Assembly (NCBI GenBank): GCA_013298995.1
Contig: JAAFJW010000014.1
Location: forward strand, 1 to 37,689
DNA length: 37,689 nucleotides
Source of the DNA: Sphingobacteriales bacterium
GTDB lineage: Bacteria; Bacteroidota; Bacteroidia; Sphingobacteriales; Sphingobacteriaceae
Direction of reading: 5' to 3'
Shown: positions 33,235 through 37,397 of the stretch, piece by piece
Layout of the letters: each line of letters starts with the position of its first letter
Numbering within the stretch: position 1 is the first letter of the stretch
Translations under genes and position numbers: made by a program
Notes under the pieces: generated by a model
What the model saw: the letters and a program-made list of their open reading frames with translations, nothing else
The model's database searches: none
What the model was told of the DNA's origin: nothing

Positions 33235-33549
33235 CTAATAAACCCTCATCTCTGGATCAATTTGCGCAGCCCAAGCTAAAATACCTCCTTTTAGGTTAAC
33301 TACATTGGTATAACCTAATTGTTCTAGCTGCAATAGGGCGGCGGCACTTCGGGCTCCGCTACGGCATTGCATTACCACAGGTTTATCGCTTGCTATTTTA
33401 TCGGCTTCTATCACAATCCCTGCCAAGGGTATATTTAAGCCTTCGAGGTTGCTCATTTCGTATTCGAAAGGCTCACGTACATCAATTAATTGAAAATCTT
33501 TGCCTTCTTCTATCCATTGGGCAAGCTCGGTTACGGTTATTTCGTTCAT
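33235..33549 (-). CDS. rhodanese-like domain protein (single domain)
   Basis: This 104-aa protein is one rhodanese domain, which carries sulfane sulfur on a catalytic cysteine. The family landmarks are QLIDVREPFEYEMSNLEGLNIPL, the active-site loop QCRSGARS with Cys62, and LKGGILAWAAQIDPEM. The loop of six residues after Cys is typical of single-domain sulfurtransferases of the GlpE type. There is no signal peptide, so it is cytoplasmic. It is probably its own unit: a TAnnTTTG element lies at 33570-33577, and the gene upstream ends in a terminator. Confidence 0.93.
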   Translation of the reverse strand: MNEITVTELAQWIEEGKDFQLIDVREPFEYEMSNLEGLNIPLAGIVIEADKIASDKPVVMQCRSGARSAAALLQLEQLGYTNVVNLKGGILAWAAQIDPEMRVY

Positions 33550-35697: not shown

Positions 35698-36186
35698 TTA
35701 CGCTAATTGCTTGTGCATTACATAATCGTTAAGTATAAAATTATGGTAAGCAATGTTTACACTATCAAAAATTTTATAGCCCATGTTAAGGTAAAAGTGC
35801 AGGGCTTTATTTTCTCTTACATTTAGTTGTATTGCTGTTGCACCTAATGCTTTTACCTCGTTTTCGATACTGTGTATAAGTGCTTTACCTAAACCCAAGC
35901 CTTGATAGTTTTGGTGTATATATAATTTATGGATTTTAAAAAGCCCTATTTTACTTGTTTTACAATAGCTAGCAAAACCGCAAAAATTGTTTTCGAAACT
36001 AATTAATTTAAACCTATGCCCTTGTTGCAACTGGGTTTGCAATGATGCTGGGCTATACATATCGTTTAGCATAAACGTAATTTGCTCCGTAGAAATAAAA
36101 TCACCGTAGGTATGCCACCAAATTTGATGCGCTAAGCGGTTTATAACACATACGTTACTTAAACTGGCCGTGGTAATTTGTATCAT
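35698..36186 (-). CDS. GNAT family N-acetyltransferase
   Basis: The 162-aa protein has the acetyl-CoA-binding signature of the GNAT fold, LYIHQNYQGLGLGKALI (residues 88-104), and the C-terminal substrate/CoA segment LNVRENKALHFYLNMGYK (residues 121-138). The substrate is not evident. Its ATG overlaps the stop codon of the TPK-like gene (ATGA), so the two are translated together and it is the third gene of the thiE-like operon. Its coupling to two thiamine-fold proteins is notable, since the trio probably works on one problem. Confidence 0.88.
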   Translation of the reverse strand: MIQITTASLSNVCVINRLAHQIWWHTYGDFISTEQITFMLNDMYSPASLQTQLQQGHRFKLISFENNFCGFASYCKTSKIGLFKIHKLYIHQNYQGLGLGKALIHSIENEVKALGATAIQLNVRENKALHFYLNMGYKIFDSVNIAYHNFILNDYVMHKQLA

Positions 36187-36752
36187 AAACTTTGGGCAAT
36201 AAACAAATAATTTTGCTCGAAACTAAAACCGAAGAAACCATCGGATATGGTAATATAAGTATGCTCGGCAATTTTTTTGGTACCATAATGGCCAGTAATA
36301 TTACCAAAAACGTATATCATCGTATTGCTTACTTCCCATTTGCTAAAACCATTTTTTATAGGATAATGCTTTTTATTATTGGCAAATACCACCACATCTA
36401 ACAATGGTAAGTACGCCTCAAAATCATTTACTGCAAATGCGTTGCTAATAATATTTACGGCAGGGTAGGCCTGTGTAACTATAAAATCCATAGCTGCTTG
36501 CAAAGTAGTTTGCCTTTTTTGGGTATAAATAAAACGGCTACTTTCCTGAAAATATATTTCGTTTTTTTCGGTACAAATAATGGCATCAATTTTTATCCCC
36601 ATCGAGGCTATTTTTTCGTAAACACTTTGGGCAAGCAGCACCATGGGCGACCACTCTAGCAACTGCCCCAACTGCTCGTCATCAAAATTATCGAAACCCA
36701 AAATTAAAAGTGCAGGTTCCTGCCCCTCGCGTACAATATGGTGGCTACTCAT
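36183..36752 (-). CDS. thiamine pyrophosphokinase-like protein lacking the catalytic aspartates
   Basis: The 189-aa protein begins MSSHHIVREGQEPALLIL and continues with LGQLLEWSPMVLL, both very like the N-terminus of Bacteroidota thiamine pyrophosphokinases, which phosphorylate thiamine at the expense of ATP. In those enzymes a GDFDS-type motif binds the metal and pyrophosphate. Here the equivalent stretch, after the strand GIKIDAIIC (to residue 60), reads CTEKNEI and has no aspartate pair. The following T-D-LEKA-type helix is also altered (QTTLQAAMDFIV, residues 81-92). The C-terminal beta domain is much shortened. The fold is probably kept, but it should not be an active kinase of the usual kind. 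It lies 12 bp after the ThiE-like gene and overlaps the GNAT gene. Confidence 0.7.
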   Translation of the reverse strand: MSSHHIVREGQEPALLILGFDNFDDEQLGQLLEWSPMVLLAQSVYEKIASMGIKIDAIICTEKNEIYFQESSRFIYTQKRQTTLQAAMDFIVTQAYPAVNIISNAFAVNDFEAYLPLLDVVVFANNKKHYPIKNGFSKWEVSNTMIYVFGNITGHYGTKKIAEHTYITISDGFFGFSFEQNYLFIAQSL

Positions 36753-36764
36753 GCAATAAAAATA

Positions 36765-37397
36765 TTAATAAATAGCCCTGTAAAAATCTTTAAAAGCCTG
36801 TTTAGGTTCCAAGGCTTTATTTACCGCCGCCGATACCGCCACACCGTGAATACCCGTGTGCAATAAAGCCTCCACATCATTTAACCCAATACCACCTGCA
36901 GCTATTAAAGGAATGCTTATCCCTATTTCGTGTAATTGTGCAATAGCATTTTTATAACCTTGCAAGCCCCAGTGCGCTAAATTATTAGGCTTAGTATCGG
37001 TATGTGCAAACGGGCCACAACCTACATAATCGGCACCATTTTTTTGCTGCCATATAATTTGCTCAACGCTACTGGCCGATGCCCCTAAAGTTTTATCATT
37101 GCCAATAAAGTTGCGTATCCATTGTAAATCAACACCCTCGTTTTCAATATGTACACCCTGTATATCGCCGTATTGTAACAAATTATAATGCTCGGTTACT
37201 ATTAATGTAGTTCCCCAATCATCGCATATCGCAATAATCTCGTTTAAATCTTTCATCATTTCGTCATCAGCCTTGCTAAAACAGCGGTATTGTATCCAAT
37301 TTGCACCAGCCTCGCAAGCCATGCGGGCTTGGCTAGCATGTGTACGTTTGGGTAAATCCTGCGTGAGGTAATGAAACTTGCCTATAAATTTTTTCAT
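36765..37397 (-). CDS. ThiE-like (thiamine phosphate synthase fold) protein with altered active site
   Basis: The 210-aa protein is a TIM barrel of the ThiE family, which joins HMP-PP and thiazole phosphate to give thiamine phosphate. The phosphate-binding C-terminal half is conserved: DYVGCGPFAHTDTKPNN (residues 123-139), PLIAAGGIGLNDVEALL and GVAVSAAVN. The N-terminal half is not. Where active enzymes have an NDR/NDN metal-binding loop this one has IVTEHYNLL (residues 66-74); the QLR-K segment is IQYRCFSK; and the GVHLGQED loop is GVHIENEGVD. So the metal and HMP-PP side of the active site looks changed. It may be a paralogue with another substrate or a binding protein. It has its own promoter (37434-37462) and leads the operon. 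Confidence 0.72.
   Translation of the reverse strand: MKKFIGKFHYLTQDLPKRTHASQARMACEAGANWIQYRCFSKADDEMMKDLNEIIAICDDWGTTLIVTEHYNLLQYGDIQGVHIENEGVDLQWIRNFIGNDKTLGASASSVEQIIWQQKNGADYVGCGPFAHTDTKPNNLAHWGLQGYKNAIAQLHEIGISIPLIAAGGIGLNDVEALLHTGIHGVAVSAAVNKALEPKQAFKDFYRAIY

Follow-up and report, generated by a model that had tools for sequence, protein, structure and literature searches.

A protein that is homologous over its whole length with thiamine pyrophosphokinase (TPK), and in which four motif patterns for the ATP/Mg and thiamine sites of that enzyme find no match, is retained in the GTDB family to which the window belongs (f1) and in a second family (f15). In the window, and in many loci of the first family, its gene directly follows that of a thiamine phosphate synthase (ThiE) homologue, itself altered at residues needed for its reaction. 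We put the chances at about even that these two are clade-wide pseudo-enzymes, derived from TPK and ThiE, which persist without catalysis as accessory components of thiamine uptake; their residues and genomic setting would fit an accessory or regulatory role in that process. A vitamin enzyme would then have been kept across a bacterial family after its chemistry was lost, and vitamin needs would be wrongly predicted wherever such genes were labelled ‘thiamine phosphate synthase’ or ‘thiamine pyrophosphokinase’.

The window is the whole stretch of DNA analysed, 37,689 nt of contig JAAFJW010000014.1 (assembly GCA_013298995.1, here G000, 98.24% complete). Three genes lie close together on its minus strand, all with open reading frames. 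The gene for the ThiE-like protein (36765..37397, 210 aa) is followed, after a gap of 12 bp, by that for the TPK-like protein (36183..36752, 189 aa), the stop of which overlaps by 4 bp the start of a GNAT-family acetyltransferase gene (35698..36186, 162 aa). The GNAT protein matches 19 NCBIfam models, each below its curated cut-off.

Neither a Pfam scan nor a PDB sequence search returned a match for the 189-aa protein, and searching the PDB sequences with a profile of 56 rows was of no help either, so its assignment to the TPK family in the sequence-only reading was not trivial and needed proof. This came from a profile of 56 relatives, which aligned over its full length (187 columns) with three catalytic TPKs from elsewhere in the Bacteroidota at an hhalign E value of 2e-42. 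The best Foldseek match of a low-confidence AlphaFold model (made from three sequences, pLDDT 59) was the Bacteroides thetaiotaomicron TPK, 2omk (E 7.2e-5), and the top matches were all TPKs. The protein is thus homologous with TPK from end to end. Homologues were found in 59 of the 73 f1 genomes, spanning 19 genera with one match per genome, and the search found none in the other 14; 56 of the 59 were aligned, leaving out those of G008 and G013 and a fragment in G058.

Compared with TPK itself (PF04263/PF04265; 2omk and B. subtilis 3lm8), the protein shares the fold and the full-length homology but is shorter (∼190 versus 220 aa), matches no Pfam model and lacks GDFDS, DQxxTD, ATGxRxDH and the SSN loop. 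The window protein reads CTEKN (residues 60-64; 36561..36575, minus strand) where the catalytic GDFDS would be. Each of the patterns GD[x][D/E], DQ..TD, [AT]TGxRxDH and SSN is absent from all 56 f1 sequences, the window's included, and likewise from the f15 proteins (0/8 for all four). The old ATP, Mg and thiamine segments are not conserved among the 56 relatives, and no new acidic pair at the former active site is found among the residues that are invariant in them. The SSN loop is presumably the thiamine side of the site; because it too is gone, sensing or binding of thiamine through the old TPK pocket, one of the functions suggested in the sequence-only reading, is unlikely.

The same picture was obtained across the class. 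A profile search gave matches in 92 of 395 genomes, and the 86 read (all except G093, G128, G150, G183, G358 and G361) were divided by the absence or presence of the GD[x][D/E] pattern, which defines the groups, into 23 TPK-like proteins (15 from f1, 8 from f15) and 63 canonical TPKs. Among the 63 canonical proteins, the three patterns independent of this split were present in 56, 55 and 52, respectively; they were present in none of the 23, in which F62, Q86, K93, R115, D117, H118, S195 and N196, conserved in the canonical TPKs with an SSHH start, were 0% kept. A tree computed without the motif columns, by a quick method and with long-branch warnings, set 55 canonical rows and the 23 TPK-like rows on opposite sides of one branch (SH-aLRT 99). 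As the TPK-like proteins form one group in the tree, a single change suffices, perhaps one loss, and the idea that f1 and f15 lost the motifs separately is unsupported. Loss confined to a single genome was ruled out by the family-wide alignments and by the pattern check of all 56 f1 sequences.

Whilst the active site has gone, the invariant N-terminal end of the TPK-like protein probably does some other job, judging by its pattern of conservation. The start codon and N-terminal block, MSSHHIVREGQEP (36714..36752, minus strand), include S2, S3, H4, H5, Q11, E12 and P13, all invariant in 56/56 f1 sequences. This non-catalytic block (SSHH...QEP plus LLEW.P) is shared with the catalytic SSHH-type TPKs of other Bacteroidota. 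A set of 55 canonical SSHH-type TPKs has 54 positions with conservation of 90% or more, and retention was scored at these, with the 15 f1 and the 8 f15 proteins taken as separate groups. The seven residues above, the helix residues L31, E33, W34 and P36, together with D56 and the late G202, were 100% kept in both groups. Mean retention in the two groups was 0.76/0.72 over residues 1-40 and 0.23/0.24 beyond, and A18, N19, G20 and C23 of the canonical TPKs were mostly lost, though near the N-terminus.

SSHH stands directly after the start codon in 120/120 distinct block-bearing proteins (113 ATG, 5 GTG and 2 TTG starts), as counted with a search pattern that demands SSHH and QE and so passes over members lacking either. 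The codons for the block residues vary synonymously, which rules out an RNA-level constraint on the MSSHH codons. Since the block is invariant at the start codon whilst its codons vary, it is constrained as protein, at the extreme N-terminus and independently of catalysis. By the same kind of pattern it is missing from 8 of the 63 canonical TPKs, the more distant ones, and the Bacteroides 2omk has neither SSHH nor QEP in the alignment.

Such conservation points to an unrecognised second function, and the TPK-like protein may survive because its N-terminal block carries this second, older role. If the start Met is removed, the mature N-terminus would be Ser-Ser-His-His, followed by the QEP stretch and the LLEW.P helix. 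The block would most likely dock to or regulate a partner in uptake or phosphorylation, the GNAT protein and the pair of PnuT and its neighbouring kinase (see below) being the first candidates.

The ThiE-like protein, with residues numbered by B. subtilis ThiE, presents a different balance of losses and retentions. It resembles ThiE (PF02581; B. subtilis 1g4t/2tps) in its Pfam TMP-TENI match of 133.5 bits against a cut-off of 27, and in keeping Q57, R59, S130, T156, T158, K159 and G188, of which T156, T158, K159 and G188 are presumably the thiazole-phosphate and pyrophosphate residues. It differs in scoring below the curated equivalog cut-offs of NCBIfam for thiE (TIGR00693, 124 versus 145.1; NF000736, 160.5 versus 227), and in having F, T, E and G at K61, N92, D93 and D112, which we take to be the HMP-PP/Mg residues. 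On the minus strand, the altered QLRxK segment reads QYRCFSK (residues 36-42, 37272..37292), with F at the K61 position, and T-E-H replaces N-D-x (residues 68-70, 37188..37196).

Among 25 core-type sequences, the window's included, K61 is replaced by L, F or M and N92 by T in every case, and D93 and D112 persist as D in only 6/25 and 8/25, respectively. In contrast, all 27 canonical ThiE proteins, a set picked by N92, D93 and R59, keep K61 and D112. Q57, R59, S130, T158, K159 and G188 are invariant in the 25, position T156 carries T in 22 sequences and S in the other three, and the first T and last H of the T-E-H triplet occur in 25/25. The group also has an invariant set of its own (24/24): C39, K42, C58, D59, W61, G62, T68, H70, E85 and D90. 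With its thiazole-phosphate pocket kept, the ThiE-like protein would be a ligand-binding partner. Other relatives have lost different residues: a related group of four from genus g5 keeps K61 and D112 and has lost N92, D93 and K159, and a ThiE relative in G040 keeps N92, D93 and D112 and has lost K61.

The proposal that both partners had lost catalytic residues therefore holds well beyond the window, in all 56 f1 TPK-like proteins and, for K61 and N92, in all 25 ThiE-like proteins. The residues might have lain at shifted positions, a possibility raised with that proposal; they were sought in the 56 f1 and 23 class-wide TPK-like sequences and in the 25 ThiE-like ones, and none was found there.

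Lost catalytic residues are also what decaying remnants would show, but that explanation is contradicted by several results and we give it hardly any credence. No internal stop occurs in any of 63 matches, dN/dS for the three genes is 0.15-0.25 (NG86 and YN00, for the single pair of the window's genome and its sister G015), and the invariant blocks extend across f1 genera, 19 of which have a match to the TPK-like protein. The earlier view that the genes are retained and not decaying is thus borne out by the open frames, by dN/dS in this one genome pair and by the lack of frameshifts seen, there being no stops in the 63 matches.

The three-gene order, whose conservation in relatives had been proposed as a check, recurs in part of the family: the ThiE-like, TPK-like and GNAT genes are consecutive in 20 of 56 f1 loci. 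GNAT directly follows the TPK-like gene in 43/56 (45 anywhere in the locus, not nearby in 11), and the ThiE-like gene directly precedes it in 26/56 (30 anywhere, absent from 26). Upstream on the same strand, a TonB receptor gene is found in 24/56 loci (none within the stretch fetched in 32/56), a phosphodiesterase/phosphatase-type gene (PF01663) in 23/56 and a PF04973 (PnuC/PnuT) gene in 9/56 (none within the stretch fetched in 47/56). None of the gene links to the TPK-like protein is universal. A rhodanese-like gene lies at 33235-33549 of the window, and its cluster recurs near the TPK-like gene in 19 loci.

The sequence-only reading had noted that no TPP riboswitch precedes the operon. This stands for the window, where only 292 bases of contig remain upstream of the operon and absence therefore says little, and for G015, with none before its ThiE-like gene; none was found in G000. 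It does not stand for the family. Whilst an Rfam scan of 11 loci at the gathering level returned nothing, matches to RF00059 under the gathering score were present just upstream of the TonB gene at 49.5 (L098), 45 (L085), 39.8 (L113) and 39.5 bits (L083), and such a match leads the operon's TonB gene in 9/9 f1 loci checked. Twenty further riboswitch places in f1 genomes were chosen for variety; nine stand before a TonB gene, one stands before a PnuT gene, and the remainder precede genes of thiamine biosynthesis (G043), other genes, genes on the opposite strand, or a contig end. Matches with E up to 0.001 occur in 113/120 genomes and exceed the Rfam gathering score in only 68, perhaps because a Bacteroidota variant of the riboswitch is missed by the curated cut-off.

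Given the TonB receptor, phosphatase-type gene and TPP riboswitch upstream in relatives, we read the setting as thiamine uptake. L113 and L096 are among the loci of relatives that unite the riboswitch, TonB receptor, a PnuT-family gene and the TPK homologue; this combination was not seen in the window or in G015. In G015 the ThiE-like and TPK-like genes do not adjoin TonB or PnuT genes; in the sub-lineage of G000 and G015 they are apparently no longer part of the large operon. A SAM-II riboswitch match (55.9 bits) was also recorded in G015 (L074, 4520-4580), on the opposite strand upstream of the ThiE-like gene.

If the TPK-like protein is not a kinase, TPP would have to be made by other means. 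The window's genome has no PF04263 TPK and no ThiC, and its best ThiG match, 20.8 bits, is under the cut-off; it is therefore not an evident thiamine prototroph, and the case that had been set against loss of activity, of two genes that are the sole ThiE and TPK homologues of such an organism, does not apply. Among 120 relatives, PF04263 TPKs were found in seven, none of them f1. ThiL scores 307.7 bits in the window's genome and is present in 117/120 relatives, including 71/73 of f1 (missing in G009 and G026, both <80% complete). A P-loop kinase of the NadR/NRK-like type (PF13521) occurs in 92/120 genomes and in none of the seven with TPK; within f1 it is found in 72/73, weakly in G025 (3.4e-9) and not in G026. 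NadR/NRK-like kinases classically serve nicotinamide riboside. Here, a PnuT gene stands immediately before the kinase gene in 7 of 10 loci examined, as it also does in the window's genome (contig C181). At least 10 genomes have the kinase gene no more than 2 kb from a TPP riboswitch match, and in 8 of 10 close cases it comes before the riboswitch and not behind it.

In the class sample, the kinase is present in 23/23 genomes with the TPK-like protein versus 6/69 other TPK-positive genomes (Fisher p 1.7e-16, a value which overstates independence, as the TPK-like sample consists of two clades). These six are four f54 genomes, in which at least three of the matches fall within open frames of 736-800 aa, and two f68 genomes with weak matches (1.8e-19 and 1.6e-17); the kinase also occurs in 176/303 genomes without a TPK-family match. 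Our model is that imported thiamine would be phosphorylated to TMP by the NadR/NRK-like kinase, often encoded beside PnuT, and TMP converted to TPP by ThiL, a route that would have freed TPK from catalysis. Against this model weigh the classical substrate of such kinases, the restriction of the TPK-like sample to two clades, the many genomes that have the kinase and no TPK-family match, and the position of its gene before the riboswitch in most of the close cases. On these co-occurrence patterns the NadR-like kinase may have replaced TPK in f1, and a thiamine kinase of this kind would explain the use of imported thiamine in Bacteroidota with ThiL and without TPK. A search of titles and abstracts in open-licence PMC found neither a description of the TPK-like or ThiE-like proteins nor one of a NadR-like kinase for thiamine. 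A fuller version of the model is more tentative, and we regard it as possible but doubtful: many Bacteroidota TPKs would have a second function in the Ser-Ser-His-His block, as an ATCUN-like metal-binding end, a docking site or a site of acetylation (perhaps by the coupled GNAT in f1), which was kept when catalysis was lost after the PnuT-linked kinase and ThiL took over, leaving the TPK-like, ThiE-like and GNAT proteins as a regulatory module of uptake.

The proteins might instead still be enzymes acting on another substrate, the ThiE-like one through its thiazole-phosphate pocket together with T68, H70, E85 and D90, with GNAT modifying the product. The invariant set of the ThiE-like protein exceeds the apparent needs of a mere scaffold, and Q57, R59, T158 and K159 are kept in 25/25, but the TPK-like protein shows no new invariant catalytic-type residues in its old active-site segments, and the recurring neighbours are thiamine-uptake genes; on balance we find such neofunctionalisation somewhat unlikely. 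It is less probable again that the ThiE-like protein, despite its altered residues, still makes TMP from HMP and thiazole by salvage and so supplies ThiL. The window's genome does have ThiL without ThiC, it contains no other strong PF02581 protein (133 bits for this one, versus 47.7 for one on contig C88), and the thiazole-phosphate residues and K159 are kept. However, K61 and N92 are gone from all 25 sequences and D93 and D112 from most, against the 27/27 canonical proteins with K61 and D112. Moreover, G018, G019 and G022 have ThiL yet no PF02581 match at E 0.001, and hence ThiL does not need the ThiE-like protein.

If the TPK-like protein had rebuilt its active site and remained a thiamine kinase, this would account for its being the only TPK homologue found in f1, whose genomes must turn imported thiamine into TPP. 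We consider such a kinase very improbable, given that the ATP, Mg and thiamine motifs have disappeared, that the corresponding segments are unconserved among 56 relatives, and that 14 of 73 f1 genomes lack the protein whilst 72 of 73 have the NRK-like kinase. Fainter still is the prospect that the ThiE-like protein is a thiazole tautomerase of the TenI type. TenI likewise has the ThiE fold and keeps the thiazole-phosphate site without ThiE chemistry, and in this the two are alike. The ThiE-like protein differs in that its genome lacks, over the cut-off, the ThiG that would be the source of the substrate, and in scoring 56.1 bits against a cut-off of 251 for the TenI model NF005819. Strong ThiG matches (>300 bits) occur in 45/120 genomes, including all 43 with ThiC, and most genomes with the ThiE-like protein have neither, as judged by eye. 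The TenI identity was rejected for want of ThiG.

For the preferred reading of non-catalytic accessory parts of thiamine uptake, the nearest known counterpart is the Bacteroides OMthi-pnuT-tnr3 thiamine transport operon, which carries a TPP riboswitch (PMC5613172). The Bacteroides operon and some of those of f1 are alike in bringing together a TPP riboswitch, TonB receptor, PnuT-family transporter and TPK homologue. Those of f1 differ in that the TPK homologue is non-catalytic by sequence, in the added phosphatase-type, ThiE-like and GNAT genes, and in the position of PnuT, which is upstream in only the 9/56 loci and elsewhere is often beside an NRK-like kinase.

Several further arrangements were observed around these genes. 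On contig C88 of the window's genome (L284, 584-2328), the other ThiE/TenI-like gene, a weak match at 47.7 bits, stands ahead of genes for a PnuT homologue and a further NRK-like kinase. Another family (G109, L286) has this gene order together with a TPP riboswitch and a TonB receptor gene, so that C88 may be either a contaminant contig or an additional system. An acyl-CoA-dehydrogenase-like protein (PF08028 in L094) is encoded after the PnuT gene in loci L094, L096 and L230, and in L230 the TPP riboswitch match is directly followed by the PnuT gene. In G026 (L228, 1363-6581), a TPP riboswitch match leads genes for a TonB receptor, a phosphatase-type protein, a START-domain protein and GNAT, in an arrangement without the ThiE-like and TPK-like genes.
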